From NCBI RefSeq assembly GCF_037975245.1, contig NC_092568.1:6360501-6424500 (forward strand): a stretch of 64,000 nt of DNA, read 5' to 3'. Shown piece by piece: positions 27,737 through 61,751 of this stretch. Below the pieces are notes generated by a model, which did no database searches, was not told the DNA's origin, and saw only the letters and a list, made by a program, of their open reading frames with translations. Each line of letters begins with the position of its first letter. Position 1 is the first letter of the stretch. The DNA is from Apostichopus japonicus. Taxonomy: Eukaryota > Echinodermata > Holothuroidea > Aspidochirotida > Stichopodidae. The translations under genes were made by a program, and so were the position numbers.

Positions 27737-30700
27737 ATGGCCAATCACGTCCTAGCATCAAGCTATGAACAAGTTACTCACAACAGACTACCTCAGAGAT
27801 CACAAAGGTTACCAAGGAATAGGACTGGAGCATTCGTTGAATTGGTAAGAATATTTTAGTTCGCACAGGCTATCTTTGTATCATAAGAATATCACATTGA
27901 ACAAATGATTGCAACAAGTTAGACCAGTAGAAGTATCACATTTGTATGGAATGTTGAGCATTATGGAAGCACCCCACCAATTCTTTGCTCTGCATGTTAA
28001 CCATTCATAATTTATCTCACATAAAAGTGAAAGTTAACTGATTACTTTATTTTTACTTTGACACAGTACAGTACTATAAAAAGATTTAATGTTACTCTAA
28101 GCACTGTTATAAGTGATTCTAAATTAGATTTAAATTTGGTTTAAGAAGTTCATTATCTATGAGCAACATGTATCGTTTGATTTGTTGTTCTTTGCTAACC
28201 ATGATCATTTTATTGTGCTTTTTAAACTTCAGCATCATGGTCCTCAAAAAGTTCCTCACCGTTCAATACCTCCATTAGCGAGACCAAGGGGAGTCCCAGC
28301 AACAAGTAGTAGCAGCAGTTATTCAAAGTCAACTGGACAAGTGAGTTTTGAGGTTGGCTTTGCCATTGGTGCAGTAATGAGGTTGGCTTTGCCATGGGTG
28401 CAGTGAGTGACAAGTTTGGCTTTAGCATGGGTGCGGTAATGAGAGAAGCTTTGCCATGGGTGCAGTAATGAGGTTAGATTTGCCATGGGTGCAGTAATGA
28501 GGTTGGTTTTGCAATGGGTGCAGCATTGAGGTTGGCTTTGCCAAGGGTGCAGTGAGTGAAGAGGTTGGCATTGGTGCATTTATGAGGCTGGTTTTGTCAT
28601 GGGTGCAGCATTGAGGCTGGTTTTGCCATGGGTGCAGTAATGATGTGTCGTCTTTTATGTATCAATGAACTATGTATTGCTGCTGTGTTCTGCTAGCTCC
28701 CACACCAGGTGTAAGCTAGATGGTTTCTCTATTTTACTCCTAAGAAGCATTCTGCACATCTTCTCATCTAAGTAAACCCTTCAAATTGATAACATCAAGG
28801 ACAAGATAATTATTGAGAAGTAGTTAACTAATGGAAGAGCTATTTATACATCCACCCAGCTTCACCTATATAATTGTAGATATTGTATTTGAAAAGCTGC
28901 AATTAATTTCATTTTTACATGTTTTGTTGTTAAGAAGAATGTTGTATTTTGGTTTGTTACTTTCAAGTGATTACTGTTGCATTTGTTTTGTTCTTTAATA
29001 TCTGCAGAAATCTAATGATGACAAACTTCTCATTCTCTCCTCCTCTACTCTGGTCTCTCTTTACTGTAAACTTGCTCCTCTTCCTCCTGTCTGCCTCCCT
29101 CTTTCTCCCGCTCTTTCTCTTCGTGTTTCTAATGTCTATCCTAAACAGAAGCAAGTTGTTCAGAACATCCGAGCCAGACAAGAGTGGAAAGGAGGCTTCT
29201 ATCCTCAGCCTGTAAAGGTAAGTCAGTTAACACGTTCTGAAGTATGCAGAAGTTATGCTTTGTGGAAGACCTTACCATTGTGCTGGCACTTTTGTACATT
29301 TTTAAAATGTAAATCGTGTATATTACAACATGCCTGTCGGTGTCCTTAATTAATTGTTTGCCTTTCCTTTGATTTAAGTAAGTAGTGTCAATTTTCTTAT
29401 GTTTGGGTGTTTATATTGATTTTTGAAGACCAAACCCTGATACCTTGAGGGGATTCTCTCATTGTCTCTTATCTATTTGCTTCATAACTTACCATCTGCA
29501 GTAACTTGTTACTTCTTATTAACACGTTAGATCATAATTTCTTCCTGCAATCAAAATCTGGTTGATTTCTATATTGAAATCATTTGCTCCTACACAGAAA
29601 AGCCGAAGTAAACAACTCCATGAGAAAATAGATCACAGACCATCTCCACATTTATTGCACGGACTTCCTGATTACAGAGATTTAACAAGGTATGTAATTA
29701 CTAGCATTGTTGTCTGCATAAACCTGTGTAGGTTTACTTCACACTGTAGTATTTTGAGTTTTGTAGTGCAAATTTGTTCCCTAGATTCCAGCCTGATTAA
29801 AGATTTTTACTTTGTTGTAGACGATCAGCAAGAAATTTTGTTGCAGCTTCGAATAATGGAGTTACTCATCTGGAGGATCTAAGGTCGGAATCAATGAATT
29901 CATTCAGTGTACAGTCTACAACAGAGACTGTGTATGATGATATGAGTAGTATAGCTGGACTGGAAGAAGTCTACAAGAAAATTTTAAAGGTAAGTAAGTA
30001 AATAGAGGAACTCAAAAATCTCTAAAGAGTGGATGCAACCCATGCCAAGGGGTATATTTGATACGGGCATGAGATTTCTACAGCCACTATACAACCCATG
30101 CCAAGGGGTTTATTTTATAAGGGAATAAGATTTGTACAGCCAATATACAATCCATGCCAAGGGGTTTATTTTAAAAGGGCATGAGGTGTTTACAGCCAAT
30201 ATACAACATTATATGCTTTTCTTGCTCCACTCTACTATTATACTGTCCCATCCACCAACCATCACAAGAAATGTCTCACATCGGGGTCACTACAGCCCAC
30301 CTCCATGTTTCTCCGAATCTACCATTCTTAAAGTAGTATAACACTTTGTTACATATTGCTTTAATGCATACAGACAGTGACATGATGCAACAGTTCATAT
30401 CATGGATTACTCATGTTTGATTTACAGGAAGAAGCTTTGACTCAGCTATCAAACAAAGACAGAAGAGGCAGACGAAAGTCAGAGAATAAACAATCTCCTT
30501 TATTGATAAGGTTAGCATCTACTTAATGTCTATGGTATAAGCATAGCATACTGTACTTGTTATAAGGTGACCATTTAAGTAATATGCAAGATATAAGCAT
30601 ATTAGGACTTAATACTTAACTGTTGATAAGGTTAGCATCTAGTTAATGTCTATGGTATAAGCATAACATACTGTACATGTTATAAGGTGACCATTTAAGT

Positions 30701-33700
30701 AATATGCAAGATATAAGCATATTAGGACTTAATACTTTACTGTTGATAAGGTTAGCATCTAGTTAATGTCTATGGTGTAAGCATAGCATACTGTACATGT
30801 TATATGGTGACCATTTAAGTAATATGCAAGATATAAGCATATTAGGACTTAATAGTTAACTGTTGATAAGGTTAGCATCTAGTTAATGTCTATGGTATAA
30901 GCATAACATACTGTACATGTTATAAGGTGACCATTTAAGTAATATGCAAGATATAAGCATATTAGGACTTAATACTTAACTGTTGATAAGGTTAGCATCT
31001 AGTTAATGTCTATGGTATAAGCATCGCATACTGTACATGTTATAAGGTGACCATTTAAGTAATATGCAAGATATAAGCATATTTAGGACTTAATACTTAA
31101 CTGTTGATAAGGTAAGCATCTAGTTAATGTCTATGGTATAAGCAAAGCATACTGTACATGTTATAAGGTGACCATTTAAGTAATATGCAAGATATAAGCA
31201 TATTAGGACTTAATACTTTACTGTTGATAAGGTTAGCATCTACTTAATGTCTATGGTATAAGCAAAGCATACTGTACATGTTATAAGGTGACCATTTAAG
31301 TAATATGCAAGATATAAGCATATTAGGACTTAATACTTTACTGTTGATAAGGTTAGCATCTAGTTAATGTCTATGGTATAAGCATAGCATACTGTACATG
31401 TTATATGGTGAACATCTAAGTAATATGCAAGATATAAGCATATTAGGACTTAATACTTAACTGTTGATAAGGTTAGCATCTAGTTAATGTCTATGGTATA
31501 AGCATAGCATACTGTACATGTTATAAGGTGACCATTTAAGTAATATGCAAGATATAAGCATATTAGGACTTAATACTTTACTGTTGATAAGGTTAGCATC
31601 TAGTTAATGTCTATGGTATAAGCATAGCATACTGTACATGTTATATGGTGAACATCTAAGTAATATGAAAAGTATAAGCTAAGCATATTAGGACTTAATA
31701 CCTTACTGTTGATAAGGTTAGCATCTAGTTAATGTCTATGGTATAAGCATAGCATACTGTACAGGTTATAAGATGAACATCTAAGTAATATGAAAAGTAT
31801 CTCGGCATATTTGGACTCAATACCTTACTGTTGATAAGGTTAGCATCTAGTTAATGTGTATGGTGTAAGAAAATCATGCAGTACAGGTTATAAGATGGAC
31901 ATCTAAGTCATATGCAAAGTAGAAGCTAAGCATATTAGGACTTCATACTTTACTGTTGATAAGGTTAGCAGATCTAGTTAATGTGTATGGTGTAAGAAAA
32001 TCATGCATTAGTACCTTACTTTTAATATGCTGATCACTTAGGTAATACTTGTATCAGACCTTACTATTGGTAAGATGAATACAGTGTATATGCACGGTAT
32101 AAGCATATCATCTACTAAATATGCATGGTATAAACATATCATGTTTGTAATGGGAATATCTACTAAATATGCATGGTAAGCATATCGTACTTTACTATTG
32201 ATAAGGAGGGTATGAAGTTAACATGCATTGCATAAGTACAAAAGTGAAGAAATTTTTTGTGCATTGTTGGTAGGATGATCATCTAATCTATATGCACAAA
32301 GAGGGTTTATATACTTGCATGTGCTATTGTAGTAGTGTATGTTACAAATCAACAAGCATATTGATGAGACAGCAAGACATAAAACAGGCACAGATTTTAA
32401 ACACTGATTGAATTTAATGTTAGAAGATGCTTCCATTTCATAGAGTGGTTGATAGTCCTGTTTGGTTACGATGACGAAAGCCCAGTAATCTTTGCTATCG
32501 TGCTGGCGTGTGTGCATGTAGGTGTGTGTGCGTTTGTTTTGCTATCTGACCGAGGACTTGAACAAAAGAATTTCAGGTCCTCGGTTGTGATTTCTAAAGA
32601 ATCACCACGTCCTCGGAAGAATTCTATTGTATGGGGTTTTGTTAAAGTTAGGGTACGTGGATTTGAACAATGGAAAATACAATGGGGTCCTCGGTCTGAA
32701 TGAAACACAAACATGTGTGTGTGTGTGTTTGTGATGGCCAGCTTGTAAACAACCACAAGTTTAATCAATGTCATACTTGGTAGATGCCCCATGATTGAAG
32801 TTGGTGGCGGTCAAAGGAGGTCGACAGGTGCCACAGTTTGAAAACCTTTTAAACTCTAAAATTAAAGCTACAATAAATTTGTCAATTCTCCAATGGTATC
32901 ATTTTCTTTTCGTGAACATAGTTTGGTCAAATTCAGTTCAGTTAAGTCTTGTGAAGGGGCTCTATAAGTCTTTAACTGAACATGCATACAATCATCCAGG
33001 AAAATTCAAGGAAATTGATATGTAGTATATATTTCTTAAAGCGCACTCAAGTGGCTATTATCCAGTTTCACCCTCTGATCTTCAAGGGGTCAACAGGTTA
33101 TCACAAATGGTCTTCAATTGGTAATTTGTTGTGTGATTTATACCAGAACATTCTCTGGTAGGCTCTCAATCTATGATAGCAAATCTCGAAAGGATTGGTA
33201 TTAGGAATTGGAGTCAAAATTCTATACTCTAAAATCCTTACCAGTGAACAAAATGGTTGATGCTTTGTCAACATGATAACTGATTCCTGACACCTTTCTT
33301 TATATGTTGCAGCATAAGCCAATAGATTATCCTCTTCATTTTGGTGTGCACATTTTCATGTATATTATTATGTATGGCTTACCACACTATGAATATGTTT
33401 AGGCATCGTAACCACTAACCGCTTTCATTTTCTTGTTTTTATTGTTTTTCTGCGGTTGTTAGGAGTTTTCGCAATCCTCAGAACCCTCATCCAGTGGTGC
33501 AGTACTCAGACATCCGAGATTCAAACAGTCCCAACAAGAATCATTACGTCTCTCGTCCTCCAGTGCCAGCTCCTTTTTTCTACAATAGTCGAACACTTCC
33601 AAAAGCTGCAGACCATGGCGGAAGTAGAGTTCATTTATCTCGATTATCAGGTCAGTAGAGCATGTTTGCTGATATCATCTTGATAGTAGGTTTCAGTTTA

Positions 33701-36700
33701 TTCTTCAATTAAGGCTCTAATCAATATACATTACCAGTCTTTAAACATGGAGTCTAAAATACTGTTCATGTTTTATGAATAAAGTCATGAGAATTAGTGA
33801 TAAACCAGACTCATTCATGTCTGCAAGGGACCATACGTAAGAGACCACATAACTGATGTGTCTGTCTTCTCTTATACCTTTCCCTTTAACCTGATACTTT
33901 ATCTTTGGAAACACTTTGTTATCTTGAAGTTCAATGAGTAACATTGAAAGGTTATATGTGAATGGTTATGGAGTTTACATAGTCAAATCCATAGTAGTTT
34001 ACTATGCAATGTAAAATGGGATATTATCAACCACAGTAATCCAATCTTTCAGGTACAAGGAGCTCAGATCACATATTGGCTGCACCAGGAGTTGGCATCC
34101 TCACAAAGTCTGCTCTAGGGTTTACAAGACAGCATAGCCCCCCTCCTGGCATAGAGGGTCAGCCACCTCCTGCCCTTACATCAAGAGGCAAGTTAACAGA
34201 TTCAGATGAACGGCTTGGCATGATGGTAAGATGATTTGATTTCTTTGGCTACAACAAGAGTAAGGGCATGTAATATCTCCGTCCTTACTTAGAGGGTTTC
34301 TATTTGATTATAGGTCTGTTAGTAACTTTCATGTTCGTTGTTGTTTTTGCTTGTAGGGAAGATTTCGAGTACCAAGTACTACACCTGCTACATCCACTCC
34401 AGATATACAGAAAGCTCTTGAAGATGCAGGAGCCAATGATGACCCTGGTGAGATGAATATTCAAAGTATTGTTGTATTTATTAATTACAATATTGCTATA
34501 TGCAATGTTGGTGTACTTGCAATGTTCACACAACTCCATGTAATTAGTGTAAGGATACCACATGATAGTAATTTAGTAGGGTGTAAATATACCTCCATTT
34601 ATGTATGAGTGTAAGCATACCACGTGGTAATACTATATATAGAGGTGTGAGTAGTATACCATGCAATTTGAGTATACCTCCTTGTTATGTATGAGTGTAA
34701 GAATACCACATGGTAATAATATATGTAGAGGTGTGAGTAGTATACCATGCAGTGAGTATACCTTCCTGTTATGTATGAGTGTAAGAATACCACATGGTAA
34801 TAATATATGTAGAGGTGTGAGTAGTATACCATGTAGTGAGTATACCTTCCTGTTATGTATGAGTGTAAGCATACCACATGGTAATAATATATGTAGAGGT
34901 GTGAGTAGTATACCATGCAGTATGAGTATACCTTCCTGTTATGTATGAGTGTAAGCATACCACATAGTAATTATATATGTAGAGGTGTGATTAGTACACC
35001 ATGATTTACCACATGTTGATAAACCCCCTCTGTAATGTAGGGGTGTTTATCTCCATGTACTACATGATTCTGATAGAGTTTCTCTTATTTCTGTACAGTC
35101 ATACTACCTGAGTATACAGATGATGAACACACAGACAATAACTCAGTTGTTCAATCAACTGAGTGCATTGATGATGCTCAAAGCTCTCCATGTGTACCAT
35201 CTGGGATTATGCTTTCTCTGGAGACTGATGAAGGAGTCAGTAAAGTTATTGATCTTGAGGAGGAAGAGGAGAGAAATAAACGAGATGGTGAAAAGAAATG
35301 ACCTTTGTTATTATAACTTATTAAAACAAACATCTCAATGTATGTTTGTTCTTATTCTTTTGTTTTTGTGTCTGTTTCCTGTTTAGTGAGAATTCATTGG
35401 AGATATTTCATTCTTTGTAGAATATCTTGATAAAACAAAGTATATTATTCTGAATTACATAAGTTATCTTAGTAACGAATATGACACCGACCTTGATAAC
35501 TATGTTAATGCTTTTGAAGAAACACTTCAAAAAGTTATGGATGTTCATGCACCTAAGAAAACATTTGTTAAGAAGCTAAACTCGACATCACCTTGGTTCA
35601 ATGATGACATTCGTGCTGCCCGTAAAGTACGCCGCCAGTTGGAACGTAAATAGAGAGACAATGGCAAACTTGAAATACACAGACAGGAATACTGCAAACA
35701 ACATGACATTGTTGCTGCTCTTATCAAGCAAGCTAAAATTCAGTATTACTCCAATGAAGTTACAAATTGCTATGGTGACCAAAAGAGGCTATTTGGATTT
35801 ATTGATAAACTTTTACACAAATCGAATGAACCTGTACTCCCGTCAGCTGTCTCTGATCAATCCTTGGCCGGCCGTTTCTCACAGTTTTTTGTGGAAAAAA
35901 TTGAGAAGATCAGGAATGCATTTACCCCTGTTTCAGACCATCAGGAACATTGTATAGTTACCTCAACTAAATTGCTCTCTGTTTTCCACCCTGCCACTGA
36001 ACATGAGGTCAAGAAGATTATCATGAAATCAGCTCCGAAATCTTGTCAACTTGATCCTGTCCCAACATCTGTTATTAAGCAGTGTATCGATGTATTTGTC
36101 CCTTATATCACTAACATTGTCAACACGTCCCTCTCTTCAGGTTGTTTCCCAGAAAGTCAGAAGATTGCATACGTTCGTCCACTCTTGAAAAAGGCTGGTT
36201 TGGACAGGGAGATCTTGAAAAATTATCGCCCTGTCTCTAACCTGAAATTCCTTGGAAAAACTATTGAACGTGTTGTTTCATCTAGGATAAATGATCACAT
36301 TTCTGACAACAATTTATCTGATGTTTTCCAGTCTGCGTACAAACAAAACCATGGTACTGAGACTGCTCTTATTAGGGTCAACAACGATATATTGACTGCA
36401 TTAGACAATGGAATGATCACTGCCCTTGTTCTTCTCGACTTGAGTGCTGCTTTTGATACTGTCGATCATGACTTGTTAATATCTAGACTCCGGAATCATC
36501 TTGGCCTACGAGATACAGCACTCAACTGGTGTAAGTCTTATCTATCACAGAGGCCACAACATATCTGCATCGGTAATGCCATCTCCGATGCTGTTGTTCT
36601 CGACTACTCTGTTCCACAAGGCTCGGTTTTGGGTCCTCAACTCTTCACTATCTATACTTATCCAGTTCGAGATATTATCCTCAAGTATAATCTCAAGTAT

Positions 36701-38320
36701 CATGTTTATGCTGATGACACTCAGATCTACTTCTCATTCAAATCCTGTCAACATGATGCTGACTCATCACTCAGAATTATGGAAAATTGTATACAAGAAA
36801 TTCGGTGTTGGATGCAGCAAAACTTCCTTAAACTGAATGATGATAAAACTGAATTTGTGCTTTTCGGATCTTGGCAACTACTATCAAAGATCAGTCTCCC
36901 TTTTATACGAATTGGGGACTCACAAATTGTTCCTGTTTCTCAAGCTAGAAGTCTAGGAGTGGTCTTTGATTCTTTCATGACGATGAAACCACATATCTCT
37001 AATGTTATCCGTTCATCCTCATTACACATTCGGAACATTGGTAGGATTCGAAAGTACTTATATCGTGTTGCTGCTGAACAAATCGTTCATTCATTTATCA
37101 CTTCTCGTCTGGATAATGGAAATGCCTTACTCTTTGGTTTACCACAATCTCAGCTCTCCCGACTTCAACGTCTTCAAAATACTGCAGCTAGAGTTGTAAC
37201 TTTGTCAAGAAAATCGTCTTATATAACACCTATACTACGAGATCTTCACTGGCTACCTATTTCTTATAGGATTATCTACAAAATTCTACTCATTGTTTTT
37301 AAATCACTTAATAACATGGCTCCTATGTATGTTTCAGAATTACTCCAATTGTACTCTCCATCACGGAATCTTCGTTCAAGCAGCACGCTTAACCTCCAGG
37401 AACACAGGTCTAAACATTTGTGGGGTGACAGGTCTTTCAGGGTTGCCGCCCCACGCCTTTGGAACACTTTACCATATGAACTGAAGTCATGCACCAGTAT
37501 TGCAGCTTTCAAGAAACACCTTAAAACTCACCTTATGCGTGAAGCTTTCCAGTAGTTCTATTTGACTTTTTTCCATGTTGCGCCTTGAGCACCCTGTAGG
37601 GTGGATATGTGCGCATTATAAATCTCTGTTATTATTATTATTACATTTGCAGTGGTCAATAAATTTATACAATTTTTGAATCTGTGTACTTTTAGTATAT
37701 CAGAATATCTTGGAAGTAACAATATTTACAAAAATTCTATACTTAATGATTTGCAAAGATGAGAGAGTTTTAACATAATGTTTGTTTGTTTGTTTGTTGC
37801 AGTCATTGAGTATCATGCAGTGCAGAGAGCATTACAGAGCACCACTGAAGATGAAATAACTGAAGAACAAATCGTTGATGAATGTAAGGAGGTAAGGCAA
37901 CAGCAACAGGATTTACTGAGATGTAACAGAAATCAATTGAACAGAACTCTTAAGGTCTTGAGAACAATTGATATCTAGCTTCATTCCTCCTTGAACAGCA
38001 GCCAATAATAAAACTGGAGGTCCATTTACTATCAATTCTGAAACCTCTTGAAGAGCCTCATGTAGACAATTCATATGTAGCTTTCTCTTTTCAATTATGG
38101 TATAATCTCTAATATATTCGAAATTGAATTGAATTGAATGAAATTAATTTTGTTTTGACAGGACCCTTCAGATGAAATTGCCAAGGAACTAAACCAGCTA
38201 CTTCATGAACACTCAGAGATTGTAAAGCACATCCATCAGCTGGAGAAACTTACCTGCAGTGATGATGAGGATGATAAAGATGATAATGATGATGATGATG
38301 GTGGTGGAGAGACTGGCTGA
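27737..38320 (+). CDS. Unidentified protein, about 505 residues, 12 exons
   Basis: I do not recognise the family. Exons with GT/AG borders and continuous phase: 27737-27844, 28233-28340, 29149-29217, 29598-29689, 29821-29989, 30428-30510, 33463-33650, 34053-34225, 34357-34447, 35099-35287, 37803-37891, 38162-38320 (stop TGA). The start shown is the in-frame ATG at 27737 with a good context (GTTATGG); the frame is open upstream to 27664, so the N-terminus may be longer. Visible: a basic N-terminal third, a serine run (about 60-70), a basic patch DRRGRRKSENK (about 193-203), proline-rich HSPPPGIEGQPPP (about 300), a GRFRV motif (331-335) that fits the RFx[V/I] docking signature of SPAK/OSR1 kinases, an EEEEER stretch (about 414-419), predicted helices near the end (DEIAKELNQLLHEHSEIVKH) and an acidic D-rich tail (about 486-505). 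No membrane segment or enzyme motif. It is probably a largely disordered nuclear or scaffold protein (inference). Confidence 0.75.
28341..28640. repeat. About 30-bp minisatellite beginning at a 5' splice site
   Basis: The array of GAGGTTGGCTTTGCCATGGG plus TGCAGTAAT-type units starts directly at the donor of the exon ending at 28340 (ACAA|GTGAGTTTTGAGGTTGGC). About ten copies. Two later units contain CAGTGAGT next to the same core, an imperfect echo of the donor. Confidence 0.85.
30035..30205. repeat. 58-bp tandem repeat, 3 copies
   Basis: Units contain CCATGCCAAGGGGTTTATTT and TTTACAGCCAATATACAA. The array is intronic in the unidentified gene, between exons ending at 29989 and starting at 30428. 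Confidence 0.8.
30501..32030. repeat. 120-bp tandem array carrying a copied 5' splice site in every unit
   Basis: Units start at about 30501 (inside the exon), 30621, 30741, 30861, 30981, 31102, 31222, 31342, 31462, 31582, 31707, 31829 and 31953. Each begins TGTTGATAAGGTTAGCATCT, which matches the last coding bases and donor of the exon ending at 30510 (ATTGATAAG|GTTAGC). The unit at 31102 has GATAAGGTAAGC, a better donor than the real one. The first ten units are almost identical; the last three are diverged. The array occupies half of a 2.95-kb intron. Confidence 0.92.
32031..33462. other. Rest of the 2.95-kb intron of the unidentified gene
   Basis: Short degenerate echoes of the 120-bp unit (TATGCATGGTATAAGCATATC) continue to about 32200. 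A (GT)n run lies near 32713. No exon was found; the reading frame from the exon ending 30510 joins correctly to the one at 33463. Confidence 0.5.
34580..35010. repeat. About 83-bp tandem repeat, 5 copies
   Basis: Units contain GTTATGTATGAGTGTAAG, AATACCACATGGTAATAATA and GTGTGAGTAGTATACCATG. It lies in the intron between exons ending 34447 and starting 35099 of the unidentified gene. Overlapping ORFs on both strands are array translations. Confidence 0.9.
35440..37643 (+). mobile_element. 5'-truncated CR1/L2/jockey-like LINE in an intron
   Basis: Sequence coding for the linker and reverse transcriptase of a non-LTR retrotransposon, ending in an (ATT)n tail (37629-37643) typical of L2/CR1-like elements. 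The endonuclease region is missing, so it is 5' truncated; the left border is approximate. It fills most of the 2.5-kb intron between exons 35099-35287 and 37803-37891 of the unidentified gene, in the same orientation. An in-frame stop TAG at 35651-35653 interrupts the linker. Confidence 0.85.
35864..37555 (+). pseudogene. LINE reverse-transcriptase ORF (563 codons, partial ORF2)
   Basis: RNA-directed DNA polymerase of a non-LTR element. Visible motifs: NYRPVSNL, motif A with the catalytic aspartate (LLDLSAAFDTVDH, D198), PQGSVLGP, and motif C YADD (282-285), followed by a thumb and the C-terminal region LQNTAARVV...LHWLPISYRI that is common in CR1/L2/jockey-like LINEs. The frame is intact from the first available ATG, but that ATG is inside the original ORF: the frame continues upstream to the stop at 35651. 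Without the endonuclease domain it cannot be autonomous. The long uninterrupted frame suggests a fairly recent insertion. Confidence 0.88.
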
Positions 38321-45200: not shown

Positions 45201-48141
45201 AATTCCTGATCTCTAGACATACAATGGCTTTTGAGAGGTTGGCTTTGTTGCTTTGGGTGAACAGATATTAATTGTATGATTTCAACCAACAAAACAAACA
45301 ACATTTTCTTTCACGCGGCAGTTATTGGACACTGTGTTTTTTATGTAATGTTCTAAGCTTATTAGCACCTATCACGTATAATCACGTATCATGGGAATTG
45401 TGGTCTTTTATGATAGTGCAAGTCATACTAGTTTGAACACAGTACAGGAATGTAGAAAAGGCATTGGCTATACAACCAATCCTACCATTCGACCTTGATG
45501 ATCACTGGTAATTTAAGCAAACCATCAATTATCACTGGATTTGAGTTCTGATCTTATGAAAGTGTATACTCATAGGACAGGAATTTTGATGCTGCATTTT
45601 TAACCATATACGCAATGTGCAATATGTGCCCACAATGGTCATCAAGTCACTAGTTTAGCCTAATTTGTAGGCCAGTTGAGAAAAAATGCCTGACTGTTCG
45701 TACTGACTGCATGGAGCACCAGAAAGATGAAACATTGACACTGATAGCATTCAGTACCTCGGCACTAGATACTGAAGTTAAACTAGATACTGGAGTAAAA
45801 CACTAGATACTGGAGTAAAACACTAGATATATACTGGAGTAAAACACTAGATATTGGAGTAAAACACTAGATACTGGAGTAAAACACTAGATACCCTGTT
45901 GGCCAGTTCACAAGGGATGTATTTATCAGTCCTGAGTGAATGACAGCCAGCTTGTCCCTGTGGAATGTATACTTATTGGTTCTTTTAATGGTGTTAGTGC
46001 CCACACTTTGTAGTATTTAACATTTCGGGTAATGGCTACTGAATAGGTTGCATCAAGTACAACAACAGTTACACAAATAGCTGATATATGCACTGATTGG
46101 TAGTATTCAAAGAGTTTCATACCATTATGTGCACAGAGCAATGGATGTATTCTTTGTACTAGTATCACTAACCCATGGAACAGAGACTACATATAAAGTA
46201 TTAGTATTACTAACCCATGGAACATAGATTACATTTAAGTTTTGTACAAGAGGTTTCATTGATCACTGTCATGTTATTTAAGCCAGTGACTATATTTTTC
46301 CACAGTAAATCTGTTCATATGAACAGATTTATATAGCACTATAGCTATATAGCACTATATATGACACAGAAGAGTGACTTTAAATAGTTTAATTGTTTAA
46401 TTAGTGACAGTCTGGAAGGTTCTCTACCAAGCTCTTTTTGCAGATACTGCAAAAGATAAATCCTGTTGTAATTGAGGTTTCCTGTTCAGGAGTATAATGT
46501 TACCAGAGATAGATATCCATTGTTGTCCTACTTCTGCAGCATTACCTAATAAATGGCTATGTTGAGTGACTAACAGCCATCTTTGATCTGAATGAAAGAA
46601 AGGTTTTAGACCAATAAATACAAACATATCATGTATGAAAATGGATGAATAAATGTCATTAATGAATATAGTGTTTGCTTTCTTGGCATGGGGTATGATC
46701 TTAGTCTTCAACTTTATAGTTAGTTATTGTTCAAGTAATAGCACATTTTGACCAATTTCCAAGTAATACAGAAATAATGTAGAATGGTTTTGGAGTTGAA
46801 TATGTTGTGTTACCTGTCTTGATCTGATATTTTTTTTTTACATGTGTCAACTACCTAACTATGAGACTGTTTTGGTTCTTACTTTTATTAGATTCGTATG
46901 TTGGCTGATACCTGCTGTGACTTCACAAAGGTAAGAAGTGGCTGTAGAACTAACCTAGGCAAATGGTTTCCCTGTGCATAGGATGTAAAGATGTATGGAA
47001 GCTGTTGTGGCAACTTTTGTTTTAAAGAAATCATAGTTATATTTGCTAAAATGTCACCTGTTGTTAATGAGGACTGTACCATTCTAATCAAAGCTTGTTT
47101 GTACATCTTTCTTCTGATACCTGTGTCGACATTCCTGGAACTATTACTACTTGTGGTTCTTGCAATTAAATAAGTTTGTCATTTACAAAATCTTCAATAT
47201 CCCAGTGTATAACTCATGTGGGAGGTGCTTAAACTTGATATTGTAATTTATAAATTATGCCTGGAGCAGATACAGCAGTGGTTAAAATCATACACATGAA
47301 TATGTTTTACCACTCTGGGAGTTAGTTAATTAAATGTATTTAACCCCCCCCCCCTCCCCACAACACACTTATCAACTGATGTGCTACAGTATCATTTAAA
47401 AACCTTTATTTCAGGCTGTTGACCTTGAGCTGGATGCGACACCAATCCTTGGGAGTGTGCGATCTAAGAGGTGAGCATGATTCCTTAGTATTAGTTACCG
47501 TCTCTACAACTTACAGTCTAGTTAGGGCATTAGAAATTGAGAGGTGCATATTGTTCCACAGTAAGGTACTAGTTACCTTCTTGGCAACTTACTGTCTAAG
47601 TTAGGACATTAGAATTTGAGAGGTAAGTATAATTCCACTGTAAGGTACACATTACCATCTCTGCAACTTACAGTCTAGTTAGGGCATTAGAATTTGAGAG
47701 GTAAATATGGTTCAACAGTAAGGTACTAGTTACCTTCTCTGCAACTCACAGGCTAGTTAGGGCATTAGAATTTGAGAGGTACGTATTGTTCCACAGTAAG
47801 GTAATAGTTACCTTCTTGGCAACATACAGGGTAGTTGAGGTATTAGAATCAGCACTACTGGTTCTGTAGCCTCAAATTTCTCTCACAATTTGATGCAGTT
47901 GGAACCAGTATACAAAGTATGCTCTAGAATTGTCAGGATGTGATATCAAAATGAATCAATTGTAGATTTCAGTCAGTTTGTTTGGCAGTGTGTTTTAGTT
48001 GTTATGTTTATGATTTATCTCTTTGTTACATTCAGGTATTCTATGGTAGTAGAAGATGGTGTTGTAACAAAGCTAAACGTCGAACCAGATGGGACAGGTC
48101 TTACCTGCAGCCTCTCAACAGAGCTTTTGAAACAGCTGTAA
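42294..48141 (+). CDS. PRDX5: Peroxiredoxin-5, complete, 6 exons, 188 residues
   Basis: Atypical 2-Cys thiol peroxidase that reduces hydrogen peroxide, alkyl hydroperoxides and peroxynitrite with thioredoxin. Exons 42294-42392, 44008-44142, 44776-44907, 46892-46930, 47415-47470, 48036-48141, all with GT/AG and matching phase. Exon 1 encodes a 29-residue serine/arginine-containing presequence (MSCSAFYRCSLLKNFPSIAR...) that looks like a mitochondrial signal, followed by a second in-frame Met (MPIKVGDKLP) equal to the internal start of the short form in mammals. The peroxidatic cysteine is Cys76 in PGAFTPGCSKTHLPG and the resolving cysteine Cys178 in GTGLTCSL. The domain is full length. The C-terminal tripeptide is KQL (human SQL, a peroxisomal PTS1 variant). 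Intron 5 holds an array that copies its donor site. Recognition of the family is certain. Confidence 0.96.
42628..42755 (-). mobile_element. Inverted partial copy of the 26421-27003 element
   Basis: GGGCTCATAATTGACGCAC at 42635-42653, and the following 100 bp, is the diverged reverse complement of 26880-27011, including the shared flank AGCATGGT. The other element end is not present nearby. It lies in PRDX5 intron 1. Confidence 0.65.
42756..44007. other. PRDX5 intron 1, remainder
   Basis: No gene or repeat recognised. The intron ends with ATTCATAG|GTAGGAG at exon 2. The 115-codon minus-strand ORF overlapping 42536-42883 is judged a chance ORF. Confidence 0.4.
44908..46891. other. PRDX5 intron 3
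   Basis: 2.0-kb intron. It holds a tandem repeat at 45768-45897 (about six copies of a 21-22-bp unit, ACTGGAGTAAAACACTAGAT) and the inverted repeat AAATCTGTTCATATGAACAGATTT at about 46308-46331. No exon is missing: the phase joins 44907 to 46892. Confidence 0.6.
47463..47850. repeat. 78-bp tandem array copying the PRDX5 exon-5 donor
   Basis: The real donor AAGAG|GTGAGC at 47471 is followed by four units in which TTGAGAG|GT recurs: 47544 (GTGCAT), 47623 (GTAAGT), 47701 (GTAAAT) and 47779 (GTACGT). Units also share AGGTACTAGTTACC and AACTTACAGTCTAGTTAGGG. The unit at 47623 carries a perfect consensus donor. The array fills two-thirds of the 565-bp intron 5. Confidence 0.9.
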
Positions 48142-52988: not shown

Positions 52989-53324
52989 GTCTTCTTTCAT
53001 TACATTGAGTTGTATATGATTAATCTGATCAAGAAAGGCATCAAATCATCACCTACAGTTGCTAGCAGGATTTGCTCCTGAAGCTCAATCAGTCTGTTAA
53101 TTGCCAAAAACTACAACAAGAACACTTAAAATATATTACAAGAAGGTAGCTTTGACACTCTATAGGACTGCAAAACCCACTCCAGCTGCGTCATCCATCT
53201 AGATTAAGAAGATACAAAGCACCTTCAATCAGATCGTAAAATGCTCATCTGCTGGCAATGTCTCCCACTCCATCACCATGGTAACAAGAAATTGGAAATA
53301 GCAACTCTGTGATTTTCATTGCTT

Positions 53325-56300
53325 TCAAATGGGTTTGTAGAGCAGGCAGGTGACATACTTCTTTCGGTACCTGTGAGTGGCACTCAAAACCATCACACCA
53401 TCCTGTAAAGCAGAAAATATGTATACATCCATCAACACAGGACTATTGATACTAGTATCATGATACTAGTACATGATACTGGTACTATTACATGGTACTA
53501 GTACATGATACTAGTACATGATACTAGTACTAGTACATGATACTAGTACATGATACTAGTACTAGTACATGAGACTAGTACATGATACTAGTACTAGTAC
53601 ATGATACTAGTACAAGTCCTAGTACATGATACTTGTACTAGTATGATATACTAGTACTAGTACATGATACTAGTAGTATTACATGATATTAAAGGTGACC
53701 AAAACCTCCCACAAATGAATCAACAAATGTTCGAAACATGCAGTTAACTTGAAAGTTGCAATATTTTCAACTATGTATTTGTATTATCACTGCACATCTG
53801 CTCGGCCATAATGATGAATCAACATTGATACCGTATGGTCTTAATCCATTCGCCAGTGAAGTAGTTCCCACTACCAGCACAAGTATGGTTCTTATATTCA
53901 ATATGCACCAGTTAGTGTGTATACGTATGTACACATTGATATGATTACCTAGCTAATATGATTGTAACTGTATACCTGCCCTGTTACAGCAGACACCACA
54001 GTTTGCTTGTGATATCTGCATGAACCAAGATGCCCAAATTCCAAGGCAAAATGAACCACATAGTGTCTGCCTGCATTTTACATGATATCAACCCAAACTA
54101 TGAACTACCAGGAATTCTTATAACTCAATATGAACATTAAATGTTTTTTTTACTTCAGACAAGCCATGTTTCTCCATCCTTCAGAGGAAGATTAACAACA
54201 ACAATTTATGGAATACTTGAGACTGTACAAGATAATTGTACTCACCTTAATAGATAAAGCATACAGGTGATTCAACATCACATGATTTGGCTCTGGTAGC
54301 AATGCTGGCTCATACTAGAATAGAAAGAACGATAGAAAGAACTAATATAAATACGTAAACTACGATTGCATACCTGCTAGTGTTTGTGGTATGCTCTGTC
54401 TTGCATTGCATAGTTTACAAGTAGTACTGTACAAGCAAAGCAATACTGTCATCTCTTTTGGCTGATTATTTATAAACCAAAATTACAGATGGAGCTCTGT
54501 TAGAGTTCACTGAGAAGCTAAGCCAACTTGACATACGGTATGAGAGATGAATATATGTATGATTCGATATGAACCATGCAGGTACAACATCCCATTACAA
54601 CACTAGCAGGCAACAGTATCCTGTTACAACACTAGCAGGAAACAACATCCCATTAAAACACTAGCAGGCAACAGTATCCTGTTACAACACTAGCAGGAAA
54701 CAACTCCCATTACAACACTAGCAGGCAACAGTATCCTGTTACAACACTAGCAGGGACAACATCCCATTAAAACACTAGCAGGCAACAGTATCCTGTTACA
54801 ACACTAGCAGGAAACAACATCCCATTACAACACTAGCAGGCAACAGTATCCTGTTACAACACTAGCAGGGACAACATCCCATTACAACACTAGCAGGCAA
54901 CAGTATCCTGTTACAACACTAGCAGGAAACAAAATCCCATTACAACACTAGCAGGCAACAGTATCCTGTTACAACACTAGCAGGAAACAAAATCCCATTA
55001 CAACACTAGCAGGCAACAGTATCCTGTTACAACACTAGCAGAAAACAACATCCCATACAACACTAGCAGGAAACAACATCCAAGTACAACACTAGCAGGC
55101 AATATCATCCCATTACAACACTAGCAAGAACAGCATCCCATTACAACACTAGCAGTCAACAGTATCCTGTTACAACACTAGCAGGGAACAACATCCCATT
55201 ACAACTGTAGCAGGCAACAACACCCCATTACAACACTAACAGGAACAACATCCCATTACAACACTAGCCGGGATCAACGTCCCACTTTTCTTATTTTTGA
55301 CATAGTACCTGAGATGCATTCATAGCAGACTAAACTTCAGGTCCACTAGAAACAATTAAGTCAGCAAAAACATGTAATGTAAGAAAAAATATATACATCA
55401 TTGGATGGCTCAAAGATATTCAACATCATCTTATGGAGACTTTATTGCATATATTATTCCCATCAACTTGTTTATAAGATACATCTTAAGAAAATGAGAA
55501 ATACATTATGTACCTGTGGACCAATGTCTTTGTTAAGTATGACTTGCAGTAGGTGTGGTGGCAAGAATGGTGGTCCTCCTGACCGGTCCATGGTATCCTT
55601 AGTTGGTACAGTCTGACCATACTCCCCAGGTGGAGATCCTAACATGGAAAGATGTTTGAGTAAAATAGATTAACTAGCAGCTTCACTTAAGTATTGACAT
55701 GATCAAATTCCAATGTTAACGTTTGACAATTGACCTGAGCCACAAAACCATTCTACATTATTTGCAGATCTTTTTAACAACAATTTATAACTTTGTGCAA
55801 GTTATACATGTTTAGATAACCAGCTTTTAATACAAGTACAGTTTAAATCTACAGTACCAAGAGTACAATATGGTGTAAAGAGGGGTTTACACTATTTGAT
55901 CACCACCTTGTTCAAGAAAACAATTCAGTTGCCCTCCCTTTAAACACAAGAAATCAATGGAGAAGACAAATTGGGTTAAAAAAAGAAAGCAGTTTTCAAT
56001 GTGTATTTGGACATCTGCCTTTGTCATTGCCTGACAACAGAAAGAAATTGTATTAAATAATTAGAATCAAGTGATTAAAAATTGCAATTTTAACATCTTT
56101 TTTCTACATTTAATTCTAAGAAACTGTTAATTTCCTTCCCAGATATGAATATTGCAAAAAGTTCAGCAGGGCACAAAAACAGAGCTGATGTTGAATAATT
56201 CTTCTACACTCTTATTGCTCCAGCTGTCCAATATGTTTGCAAACAATGAACCAATTGTAACAGCCTCATCAATTCTTCTAGCAGGATTTCACTGAATTCA

Positions 56301-59300
56301 CTCCACTAGGCATAATTTCACACATATTATCAGTGTCACACTTCAACCATTCAACAGTGAAGGTTTCAGATGAACATAAAAATTGACCCACCAGGAACAA
56401 TTAAAAAATATGTCAAAATAACATGTATAAATACTGATCTCTAATAAAAAATAAATAAAAAAAACCCCAGCCATTCTTGAAAATCAATTTTTCTTTTTTT
56501 GAAGGGTAATAGTTATGGTGGTTGAAGGAGGGTAATAGAACTTTATGGTGTTTGAAGGGTACTAGTTATGGAGTTTGAAGGGTAATAGTTATGGAGTATG
56601 AAGGGTAATAGTTATGGAGTATGAAGGGTAATAGTTATGGAGTATGAAGGGTACTAGTTATGGAGTATGAAGGGTAATAGTTATGGAGTATGAAGGGTAA
56701 TAGTTATGGAGTATGAAGGGTAATAGTTATGGTGTTTGAAGGGTAATAGTTCTTTGAAGGGTAATAGTTATGGTGTTTGAAGGGTAATAGTTATGGTGTT
56801 TGAAGGGTAATAGTTCTTTGAAGGGTAATAGTTATGGAGTATGAAGGGTAATAGTTATGGAGTATGAAGGGTAATAGTTATGGAGTATGAAGGGTAATAG
56901 TTATGGAGTATGAAGGGTAATAGTTATGGAGTATGAAGGGTAATAGTTATGGAGTATGAAGGGTAATAGTTATGGTGTTTGAAGGGTAATAGTTCTTTGA
57001 AGGGTAATAGTTATGGAGTATGAAGGGTAATAGTTATGGAGTATGAAGGGTAATAGTTATGGAGTATGAAGGGTAATAGTTATGGTGTTTGAAGGGTAAT
57101 AGTTATGGTGTTTGAAGGGTAATAGTTATGGTGTTTGAAGGGTAATAGTTATGGAGTATGAAGGGTAATAGTCATGGAGTATGAAGGGTAATTGTTATGG
57201 AATATGAAGGGTAATAGTTATGGTGTTTGAAGGGTAATAGTTCTTTGAAGGGTAATAGTTATGGTGTTTGAAGGGTACTAGTTGTGGAGTATGAAGGGTA
57301 ATAGTAATGGAGTATGAAGGGTAATAGTTATGGAGTATGAAGGGTAATAGTTATGATGTTTGAAGGGTAATAGTTCTTTGAAGGGTAATAGTTATGGTGT
57401 TTGAAGGGTAATAGTTATGGAGTATGAAGGGTAATAGTTATGGAGTATGAAGGGTAATAGTTATGGAGTATGAAGGGTAATAGTTATGGTGTTTGAAGGG
57501 TAATAGTTCTTTGAAGGGTAATAGTTATGGTGTTTGAAGGGTAATAGTTATGGTGTTTGAAGGGTAATAGTTCTTTGAAGGGTAATAGTTATGGAGTATG
57601 AAGGGTAATAGTTATGGATTATGAAAGGTATTAGTTATGGTGTTTGAAGGGTAATAGTTCTTTGAAGGGTAATAGTTATGGTGTTTGAAGGGTAATAGTT
57701 ATGGAGTATGAAGGGTACTAGTTATGGAGTATGAAGGGTAATAGTTATGGAGTATGAAATGTATTCGTTATGGTGTTTGGAGGGTAATAGTTCTTTGAAG
57801 GGTAATAGTTATGGGGTTTGAAGGGTAATAGTTATGGTGTTTGTAGGGCAATATTTAGTTCGGGTATGAACAGGCCAATCTTGGCTTCACTTCCAAAGTG
57901 ACAAGTAGCTATGGTAAGACAGGGCTGATCTGGGCTTTGCTTCATAACTTAGTCCTCTACTGAGTGATAAAGACTAGCTGATATGGCTACTGATTTCATC
58001 CTCTGAGACCACTCATTGACATCAAACAAAAGTTCTGTTCAAGAGTTTCCTCGAGGACGTCAAGCTTATTGCAACAACCCTTTAAATATCTACCTAAATC
58101 ATCAAATCTAATTTTCTGATTGCTAGCTTTACTGAGTGAAATAGCTTGCTTTATCAAGTGTAAAATTCCTGTTGTCAAGAGCACAAGCTGAAAAACTTAC
58201 TTAGCCTTTTTCATCCAATATGGAATTGATTAACCCTGAGTAAAACTTTCAGGCTAAATGTTCATTCCTCACCTCTGTTCTTTGTTGTGGAGGAATCGAT
58301 GGCTAATGCTTCAAAGACCTCAAAGTCAGATTTCTGCACATTAACCACATTATTAGTAACTCCCATCTTATTATTCCTTGTTTGCTGCAGAGGAAAACAA
58401 ATGCAATATATTTTAAAAAAAAAGTAAAAATTTTTAGTCCAATATATATTGTCCAAGTTATATCATCAAATATCTTAGTGCTGATGTACAAACATACAGC
58501 AATGATAAGAACCAGACTGGAAAGCTGTACTAAGGTCCCAAGGGGCCATCATGCCAGCTTCTGTATTTCACTGATTTGCCTTGTGCTCATTTTCAAAGTG
58601 TGGCTACAAACCTTAATCAAACAGTATTTTCTACATTATAGATGTTATAGTAGTTAATGTACAGCTTCTCAATGGATGCACCCCTGAGGTTCCCTGCAAT
58701 CGTAGAACTGAAAGCCAACTGATGCTTTCTAATTTGTAATCATAGCAGCTTACTTATGGATATGCATTAATCTGTACATGTCACTTTGCATAATAGTTGA
58801 CACTAACCTGTTTGGTGCTGTGCTGCCAGTTACCATCAACATGGAACTTGTACTCATATTCACCTTCTGGTAGGTCAACAATAGCAGTGAAGTTACCATG
58901 ACTGTTAAAGAGAGAGGAATCATCAGCATTGTAACAAACGCAGGATCATGCGTCCGGGATGAAATGTTTAGCCAGGCACGCAAAATTTGAGAAACAAACC
59001 CTAAGCACACACACCCACAACTAGGCTTATGCCAAACAAGGCACATTATTAAGGAACATCTTTCTTTCTTTTGACAAACCAAATCTACAGTACTTCTCAA
59101 AAGAACCAAACTTTCTTCAATCCTACCAGGATTGTTTGAAAACAAATAAAATCATAACAATCAACTGCAAGTTGTGACACTTCCATACACAGCTTAGTTA
59201 CAACATTCCATAACAGCGATTTTCATGCTACATATAGCCAATGATGTTTTCCAAATTAATTATGTTGTTTATTATGTTTTTTAACAACAATTACTTGTAA

Positions 59301-61751
59301 CGTTACTTTCCACTGTGCAGAGAATATTACATGAGATGATAACTGTACAGGTCTCACAAACTTTGAATGAATATTAAGACCAAATTGGACAGTTAGCTTG
59401 CAATCACCTCACCAGACAATAACTAAGTGTTCATATCTTTTGTGGCAGTTTGGGGGGGTTTATGAATATATACATGTTTCTCATAAAATAGTATGCTTAT
59501 GTGCACGATACAGTTCTATAAAATTTTCATTTGGAAACTGCATAGCAATTTGCCCATTTTGAATAGCATTTTACTAATACCAGATAAATTATTCACTGGT
59601 TTTTACTCTACAATTATTTATCAGTTTTGGAATTTGAATGGAAGGAAAGTTGAACCTTCCAACGACATAAGTGAGACTTGGGGGTGCAATTCTAAAACTT
59701 TTCCATTCTTGTAGTTAAGGTAGAAAGTGCTCATGGAGACCGGTAAGGGGAAAGTAGTGACGCAAATGACAATTGCAAGAAAAAACATTCAGATTTCTGA
59801 GGATTCCCTGTAGAATAGCAACATCAGATGGTTAACAACTTTGGCTATTTAACGGTAGGTTGAGAAGGTAAGAGGCAAAGGGCTGCTTGTTGATTGGACT
59901 GTGTAGAGTGTTCATTGCTGAAGTCACAAATGAAATCACAAGGCTTATCATGGAATCTAATGGCACACTAATATATAATGACAGTAATTACCTTTTGTTC
60001 ATGGGTATCCTTTGCCAATTGTTAAAGTTACCACACACGTAAATTTCTTTGCCAGTGCCATCCCACTTGAAGACCACAGGCAGTGACGAGGCCGTGGAGT
60101 TGCTTGCCTCATTTACAGTAGAGGAACGTGGTCTCCCTCCTCTACGAAGATCCTCTTCAACACCCGATTCTGCTTTCATTAATCTCTGTAGATTAAAAAA
60201 CAAGTAGTTTAATTTTAAGACCATGTAAAGCTTAATAAAATGTATTATCATATAGAACTGACTTTGAACATGATAGATACATCCCCCATGGAATGACAGT
60301 GCAGGCCCTGAGATAAGAAATGCCCCCCTCTACGTATGTCCATCAGACATGGTGACCTGTTTGTTGGCTGTAAACCAATCACATCCTTCTCTATCTACAT
60401 TGTATTTATCAAACATCTAACGGGGGACTAGAAATCATCCAGGCCAATAAAGAACACATCATTTGGCATCCCTCCTTGAAGAAAGCAAAGAAAATTGGAC
60501 AACTTTTGCTCTGAACAATCCTCTTTCTGTAGTACACTTTTATTGTAACTAGACACTAATCATTGCAATGCTAATCATCATTTAAAATTGTAAATTTTGG
60601 TCTGTTCCACATGATGTCACACTCTTTTAGGGAACAATTGTTTCCAGAATGACCTTTAATTACAACAATTGAACATTATGTTTCAATAAATCACATAGTA
60701 TGAAATACAACAATATACATTCTTTATATGTGAATAGTAAGATTGACAAATCTGCAGGCATTTGATGCAGCAATTTTTAGTTAAATTTCAATCTCGATAC
60801 CAGAAGCCCTTGATTGATATCCAGAGACAATATAGTAGCTTTCTCAAACACAGAATTAAACACTTAAACCATAAACCAATCAAAACTACTTCAATGCACC
60901 CTTGAACAGCAATGGACTGACATTTTGCTAATGTATGCGCAGCTGAATTATCTTAATGGATTTTCAGGTTCTATGCTGTAGGCCTTTCATTACGGTTGAA
61001 TCTACACATATATATATACAATACAGTGAGCATCTGGGATAAATCATCATTGCTAGGCAACACCAGATAAATTATTCTGTTATGCTTGATATGAATCCAG
61101 ATAATAAACTTAGTGGCAGATCATGTAACATCCCTTCAATACACATTTGCTAAGAATCCATTTAGGGAGAAATCAATTAAATATGATCAAGCATCAGCCT
61201 TCAGGCCCACTGTTCTCATAGCAAGTGACTAGAGCACTCTCCCAGTCGTTTTTAACATGATATAAAAACAATAAAATAGGTATTTAATTCAGTAGCCAAA
61301 GTTGAAGAAATTGTTACATTTTATCACACACCAAAAGAGAGCTAAATTCCCACAATTAGGATAATAGAGAGCCTTGAATGGCCACATACTGTCTAAGATT
61401 GAAAGACCTTAAGTTTATTCTATATTGGCTGAAAAAAAAAAATTGATTAAAAGGGATGACAGAAATAATTAACACAGCATTAGGCATTGAGTTTGGTCAA
61501 GTTTCAACAGGATTGGACACCACTGTTACCTACTACATGCAGTACATAATCTTTGTCCAAGTTACTTTTTCTTGGAAATACTTTAAACCAATCTTTAGCA
61601 AATCTGCAAGACCTACCTCAAGCCGAGGCTGAAGATCGATGGTATCATCCAGTGAAGCCTGCTGAAGGAAGACCTTCTGGTCAAAGCCATCTTTGGTTGG
61701 AGACAATGGGGACCCATCTTTGCTTTCTCTCTTCCCTGGTGCATTCCCCAT
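53325..61751 (-). CDS. PRKAB: AMP-activated protein kinase beta subunit, complete, 7 exons, 268 residues
   Basis: Scaffold and carbohydrate-sensing subunit of the AMPK heterotrimer, linking alpha and gamma. Exons on the minus strand: 61617-61751, 59992-60185, 58808-58901, 58273-58384, 55514-55638, 54246-54314, 53325-53402; all borders GT/AG and phases agree. MGNAPGKRES at the start provides Gly2 for N-myristoylation. Glycogen-binding domain (CBM48) about 80-160: FKWDGTGKEIYVCGNFNNWQ, with W102, K128, W135 and N152 at the positions of human beta-1 W100, K126, W133 and N150; Ser110 matches the regulatory Ser108. The C-terminal alpha/gamma-binding domain includes PPFLPPHLLQVILNKD, LPEPNHVMLNHLYALSIKDG and ends THRYRKKYVTCLLYKPI. 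Length matches the human proteins (270-272). Beta-1 versus beta-2 cannot be decided; invertebrates usually have a single gene. Confidence 0.97.
53445..53695. repeat. Self-complementary ACTAGTACATGAT array
   Basis: About 20 short units combining ACTAGT, GTAC and CATGATACTAGT. Because ACTAGT, GTAC and CATG are palindromes, the array can fold back on itself at many registers. It is 42 bp into the last intron of PRKAB. Confidence 0.85.
53696..54245. other. PRKAB last intron, remainder
   Basis: No feature recognised. A 62-codon plus-strand ORF at 53756 has no motif. Confidence 0.4.
54590..55275. repeat. 29-bp minisatellite with 58-bp higher-order dimer
   Basis: Two monomer types alternate: ACAACACTAGCAGGCAACAG plus TATCCTGTT, and ACAACACTAGCAGGAAACAA plus CATCCCATT. 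About 24 monomers. The alternating pattern is regular from 54610 to about 55040 and then breaks down. It lies in PRKAB intron 5. Confidence 0.9.
55639..56496. other. PRKAB intron 4, unique part
   Basis: AT-rich intron with no feature recognised. Confidence 0.4.
56497..57855. repeat. 1.36-kb minisatellite, 23-bp unit with 15-bp variant
   Basis: About 60 copies of GAAGGGTAATAGTTATGGAG plus TAT. A GTGTTT ending and a shortened form (TTTGAAGGGTAATAGTTC) are interspersed in a semi-regular order, giving blocks of about 200 bp that recur. It lies in PRKAB intron 4. Confidence 0.93.
57856..58272. other. PRKAB intron 4 between the array and exon 4
   Basis: No feature recognised. The 62-codon minus-strand ORF at 57996 has no splice support and would disrupt the AMPK-beta reading. 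Confidence 0.4.
58902..59991. other. PRKAB intron 2
   Basis: No repeat or gene recognised. The ORF at 58750-59145 overlaps exon 3 in a different frame and is a shadow. Confidence 0.5.
60186..61616. other. PRKAB intron 1
   Basis: No feature recognised in 1.4 kb of AT-rich sequence; a short (TA)n run lies near 61010. Confidence 0.45.

Follow-up and report, generated by a model that had tools for sequence, protein, structure and literature searches.

One coding exon in the window analysed here, a 64,000-nucleotide stretch of contig NC_092568.1 of Apostichopus japonicus, ends inside the first unit of a 120-bp tandem repeat that opens the following intron, and copies of its 5′ splice site recur along the repeat. 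This repeat (array A) is probably a nearly neutral mirage of the type known from amphioxus; it would have formed by tandem duplication of the exon–intron junction, and splicing from the first donor would normally excise it in full. Five more arrays with the same layout lie nearby (arrays B to F, C being weaker), which argues for duplication of a junction segment, not coincidence, as an earlier note on this DNA had proposed for array A. Junction duplication would have occurred several times over in this stretch of the genome.

Array A and its donors

Tandem Repeats Finder (TRF) places 12.3 copies of the unit, with 94% matches, at 30503-31996. The motif TTGATAAGG starts units at 30503, 30623, 30743, 30863, 30983, 31104, 31224, 31344, 31464, 31584, 31709, 31831 and 31956, and a degenerate fourteenth start lies at 32198. 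A donor-like GT follows 13 of these 14 starts, the exception being the last, and the 13 occurrences of TTGATAAG/GT (a slash marks the splice junction) are spaced by 120–125 bp. These figures bear out the approximately 13 repeats of a 120-bp unit at the junction described earlier. The extent then given, 30501..32030, does contain the array, but the array proper is that found by TRF and unit-like sequence runs on to approximately 32290. All 13 matches listed in a search of the 671.6-Mb genome with the consensus unit fall inside array A, and its classification as a dispersed repeat was rejected.

By alignment, homology to the later units begins at 30503, so that the last 8 nt of the exon are included; visual inspection alone extends the match by another 5 nt (CTTTA) if a 3-nt gap is allowed. 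The edge on the exon side is sharp and homogenised (the exon-side unit scores 0.95), and the far side is degenerate. Per-period scores are 0.93–1.0 over the first nine blocks and then fall through 0.85, 0.77, 0.62, 0.35, 0.27 and 0.19 to 0.12. The tail still scores 29–37, against 21 for the 99th percentile of 200 random windows. The exon is open, and its frame carries on across a phase-2 junction into the next exon, which starts at 33463; the joined protein has no Pfam family match.

Table 1. Coordinates of array A, its exons and splice signals, and the further donor-edge arrays (window positions; negative values lie in the flank)
Feature	Position	Strand	Description
Array A	30503..31996	+	120-bp unit, 12.3 copies; donor copy at each unit start
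Degenerate tail, older units	31997..32290 (end approximate)	+	~66% identity
Coding exon A (..SENKQSPLLI R/)	30428..30510, 83 nt	+	Last 8 nt TTGATAAG = opening of repeat unit 1
Next coding exon	33463..33650	+	Acceptor TTGTTAG/GAG
Authentic 5′ splice site GTTAGC	30511..30516	+	Matrix 2.9, U1 pairing -5.6 kcal/mol
Sixth unit start, strongest decoy AAG/GTAAGC	31104..31117 (GT at 31112)	+	Matrix 7.2, U1 pairing -9.5 kcal/mol
Second donor-like site AAG/GTGACC, unit 1	30564..30572	+	Matrix 3.4, U1 pairing -6.6 kcal/mol
In-frame TAA	30524..30526	+	13 nt past true donor; included by splicing from any later donor
PRDX5-like exon (..ILGSVRSK R/YSMVV..)	47415..47470	+	Donor GAG/GTGAGC begins array B
Array B, 78-bp unit	47462..47849	+	Units TTTGAGAG/GTAAGT, GTAAAT, GTACGT or (A)TTGAGAG/GTGCAT
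Array C (probable), 29-bp unit	28341..28643	+	Starts at donor CAA/GTGAGT; exon end GGACAA/GTGAGT at 28340
Array D	Donor at -65373	minus	Exon ..DVIPATE/, then GAG/GT words
Array E	-37072	minus	Exon end GCAATAAGACAG/GTAACA
Array F	-45241	minus	Exon end ATGTCACACATG/GTAAGT

Donors were scored with a position matrix of animal donor frequencies and by pairing to the 5′ end of U1 small nuclear RNA (snRNA), a sequence present in the host genome. Only in-register donors enter these comparisons, which leaves aside the 10 of 22 that were misaligned and received no matrix score. U1 snRNA itself gave at least 42 matches in that genome, in a single cluster (C20:29019462-29087219), many at a spacing of approximately 855–860 bp.

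The authentic donor of array A has the weakest U1 pairing among the 11 authentic donors scored in register. Its word, GTTAGC, stands at 12 of the 13 unit starts, itself included, and the remaining start has GTAAGC, which makes 11 later donor words equal to the authentic one and one stronger. A stronger decoy had been reported at 31102; its greater strength stands, but its GT is located at 31112. The second donor-like site of the unit is less uniform across the 12 full units, reading AAG/GTGACC in seven and ATG/GTGA in three, with the GT lost in two. As the earlier note had foreseen, later donors bring in a stop quickly (Table 1).

Further arrays at 5′ splice sites

Array B belongs to a gene whose joined exons match Redoxin (PF08534, E=3.2e-35). 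The exon ends at 47470 in GATCTAAGAG/GTGAGC, and array units read like ATTTGAGAG/GTAAGT or GTAAAT. The in-register alignment of the array to the junction was tied by one of 3965 random places and reached by none of 22 donor-centred places. The junction part of the array is diverged, since strict local alignment begins only at 47495; TRF starts the repeat at 47488. Array C is the weakest of the six donor-edge cases, because its exon fringe is just 0–2 nt and its register was judged by eye; strict alignment begins at 28348 and, of seven later units listed, two retain an in-register GTGAGT.

Arrays D, E and F lie in the flanks, which are the 200 kb around the window (264 kb in total). Array D comprises 21 GAG/GT words, the authentic one included, 14 of them with the donor GTATGT. 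Its exon together with two downstream exon pieces matches CLPTM1 (PF05602, E=1e-16); the exon by itself matches at E=0.0035, under the curated cut-off. Array E holds 50 copies of CAG/GTAACA, again counting the authentic one. The last 11 nt of the exon are exact in 32 of these and one base off in the rest. Array F has 20 copies of ATG/GTAAGT, authentic included (12 with exact TGTCACACATG), and the match to the exon reaches approximately 17 bases if a one-base gap is allowed. The exons of E and F are predicted from open frame and splice signals, in F also from neighbouring coding-like frames, and neither has a family match (no Pfam family for exon E). A PDB search with the exons of E and D gave no match.

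Frequency of arrays at donors

The 264 kb contain 92 minisatellite arrays of period ≥15, covering 51952 of 264000 bases (19.7%); coverage in a 20-kb sample of contig C1 is 2126 of 20000 bases. Exon prediction relied on a small codon model, for which 820 codons from genes of the window served as training data. With the threshold at 14, the model called 48 exons; of the array edges, 11 lay ≤300 nt from a donor and five of these (A, B, C, D and F) ≤20 nt; array E came from a separate scan and is outside this count. Five donor edges compare with 0.695 expected, a number reached in 5 of 20000 circular shifts of the arrays (P 0.0003). A second run of 5000 shifts gave 5 versus 0.67 expected (P=0.001).

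Several points weigh against the mirage reading. Exons A, B and C belonged to the predictor's training set, whereas exons D and F did not. Under laxer exon thresholds of 12 and 10 the excess shrinks (5 versus 1.02, P=0.003; 6 versus 1.68, P=0.008). In the flanks alone it is only suggestive and not significant at any of the three thresholds (2 versus 0.39, P=0.058; 2 versus 0.68, P=0.15; 3 versus 1.28, P=0.14). A blanket rule that arrays favour donors was rejected, as annotation-free tests gave no excess at the right over the wrong edge: without the coding filter, donor edges number 6 versus 4 (58 arrays, threshold 4) and sites 11 versus 9 (92 arrays). No array of period ≥15 stood at the donor of any of 10 kinase-exon ends, examined from 20 chosen blind to sequence among 134 domain matches; 2 of the 10 ends have no donor scoring ≥3. 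The 20-kb sample of contig C1 likewise had none at its 10 called exons. Finally, use of the first donor in array A is predicted from the reading frame.

Two of the kinase ends do have a score-31 match near the donor, with a period of 8–9 and 2.1–2.4 copies, which is below the limits used elsewhere. In contig C1, a 90-bp duplication stops approximately 14 nt short of a called exon and does not cross the exon boundary. A polarity restricted to donors was considered and is not supported: acceptor edges numbered 0 (among the 48 exons), 1 and 1 at the three thresholds versus 0.67, 1.02 and 1.68 expected, which is not significant. One acceptor candidate was found within 150 nt of an array edge, at 75 nt.

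Origin of array A and alternative readings

A mirage at this junction would have begun with the tandem duplication of an approximately 120-bp segment straddling the exon end and its donor. Unequal exchange or conversion may then have enlarged and homogenised the array, the first unit included, so that the weak GTTAGC of the authentic donor may be a product of this homogenisation. The first copy would remain the working exon end, with the later, intronic copies excised whole. The true donor would be preferred since it gives the exon an ordinary length of 83 nt: exon recognition should favour the exon-proximal site, and decoys would add at least 120 nt to the exon. The array would then be nearly neutral. 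In array B the last codons of the exon encode a conserved part of PRDX5, which favours the direction from exon to array there; in array A either direction may hold. As a guess, arrays may persist only where their exon fringe is short, since a longer fringe would include exon enhancers.

A more specific reading, which we regard as rather unlikely, is that minisatellites of this lineage arise preferentially at donors, with a donor-tied process (R-loops, for example, or DNA breaks where U1 and polymerase meet) starting duplications inside the exon. Duplications that begin a few bases inside the exon would therefore let tens of copies of a gene's own donor accumulate within the intron. If so, the ladders might even act as platforms for U1 near the start of the intron.

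It is also unlikely that array A is an ordinary intronic minisatellite touching an exon by chance. The stretch is rich in minisatellites, donor words are about equally common at right and wrong array edges and the flanks alone give no significant excess, all of which would suit chance contact; against it, the units carry copied exon bases and the region as a whole has five donor-edge arrays where 0.67–0.70 are expected. The earlier note had named a neutral minisatellite that started at the junction by chance as its alternative; neutrality is probable, but the start at the junction recurs nearby.

An effect of the ladder on splicing, through some use of decoys and a copy number that alters isoform level or decay, is improbable, and the sequence gives no demonstration of the decoy action or the allele-dependent donor choice that the earlier note had suggested. 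The equal and stronger decoy words would permit it, and there is a human parallel in the 6-16 gene (IFI6/G1P3), whose minisatellite reportedly provides multiple splice donor sites, to go by the title of a 1995 paper by Turri, Cuin and Porter. Each product of a later donor would, however, meet the early stop. In the available parts of PMC3087553, Adh3 data and reverse transcription polymerase chain reaction (RT-PCR) on globins suggest that amphioxus mirages leave regular splicing undisturbed.

Stepwise (recursive) removal of the intron through the AG/GT of each unit, also raised by the earlier note, is very improbable: AAG/GT at each unit start does offer both halves of a zero-length exon, but the AAG has no strong pyrimidine tract and, on a crude measure, the AG that precedes the donor GT has an acceptor-likeness of 8.5–12 in the 12 later units versus 13–17.5 for real acceptors (6 of 11 coordinates gave a value, the remaining five being displaced by one base or not conforming to the rule).

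Comparison with known systems

Mirages in amphioxus involve Adh3, the globins BflGb6 and BflGb9, TnC and PGBD5 (available parts of PMC3087553 and PMC3902484, the latter adding PGBD5 and mentioning TnC). Length instability is noted in the available parts of PMC3087553, where intron creation by mirages is proposed and a model of intron gain through tandem duplication of AG/GT segments is discussed. As in the amphioxus mirages, homology in array A runs from 30503 across the donor at 30511 and the repeats copy the splice signal. The host here, in contrast, is an echinoderm, and all six cases stand at 5′ splice sites, whereas the available descriptions for amphioxus include 3′ boundaries. Exon fringes in the six cases are short, from 0–2 nt (C) to approximately 17 nt with a one-base gap (F). 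The same sources describe concerted evolution that excludes the boundaries; in array A the far edge decays and the exon-side unit is homogenised.

Like the AG/GT model of intron gain, the events proposed here carry splice signals by tandem duplication, but they enlarge an existing intron and no new intron is evident. Array A shares with human 6-16 a minisatellite built of repeated splice donors. In the human gene the extra donors serve the transcript, by the title of the report; those of array A are candidate donors.

The phenomenon itself is thus known, and within the literature searched the additions are the echinoderm setting and the local density. No echinoderm case was found in what was available of the open-licence literature listed (including PMC2572611 and PMC4526556), and an earlier report elsewhere is possible; the available parts of PMC4039745 and PMC2721852 hold no description of donor arrays. 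Six cases per 264 kb (C weaker; E and F at predicted exons) would extend the lancelet phenomenon to echinoderms. A gene that has between a dozen and fifty copies of its own donor beside the true one offers a natural test of spliceosome choice among equal sites, and array A is an especially sharp case, as one of the copies there is stronger than the authentic donor. Genome-wide counting could ask whether minisatellites arise at splice donors.

Other arrays and genomic features

Two further arrays of the window, at 30036-30207 and 34588-35003, were rejected as donor arrays; they lie 46 and 140 nt past a donor and exclude it. An 82-bp array at -79507 (minus strand) has CAG/GTCTGT at its edge and was not counted, as the upstream sequence is not open; it perhaps marks a non-coding exon, or chance. 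The AMPK beta-like gene at 53320-60190 (minus strand; PF16561 on one exon) has three intron arrays, none of which begins at a donor. After the exon at 35099, a LINE-like element occupies 35654-37555; its long open frame encodes a reverse transcriptase domain (PF00078, E=3.5e-32).

Elsewhere in the assembly, contig C35 is the 16,099-bp mitochondrial genome, in which nad1 and nad2 share the strand of cox1 and follow a tRNA cluster, an arrangement that fits sea urchins and sea cucumbers better than sea stars. When COX1 is read with genetic code tables 4, 5 and 9, table 9 (AAA Asn, AGR Ser), which echinoderms and flatworms use in their mitochondria, gives the conserved residues. Five COX1 pieces outside C35, four of them adjacent to one another and the fifth separate (contig C29:14745-16086 and 30842-31219, minus strand), are probably nuclear or misplaced mitochondrial copies. 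On C4, ten homeodomain matches spread over 6.139 to 6.929 Mb are consistent with a Hox cluster.

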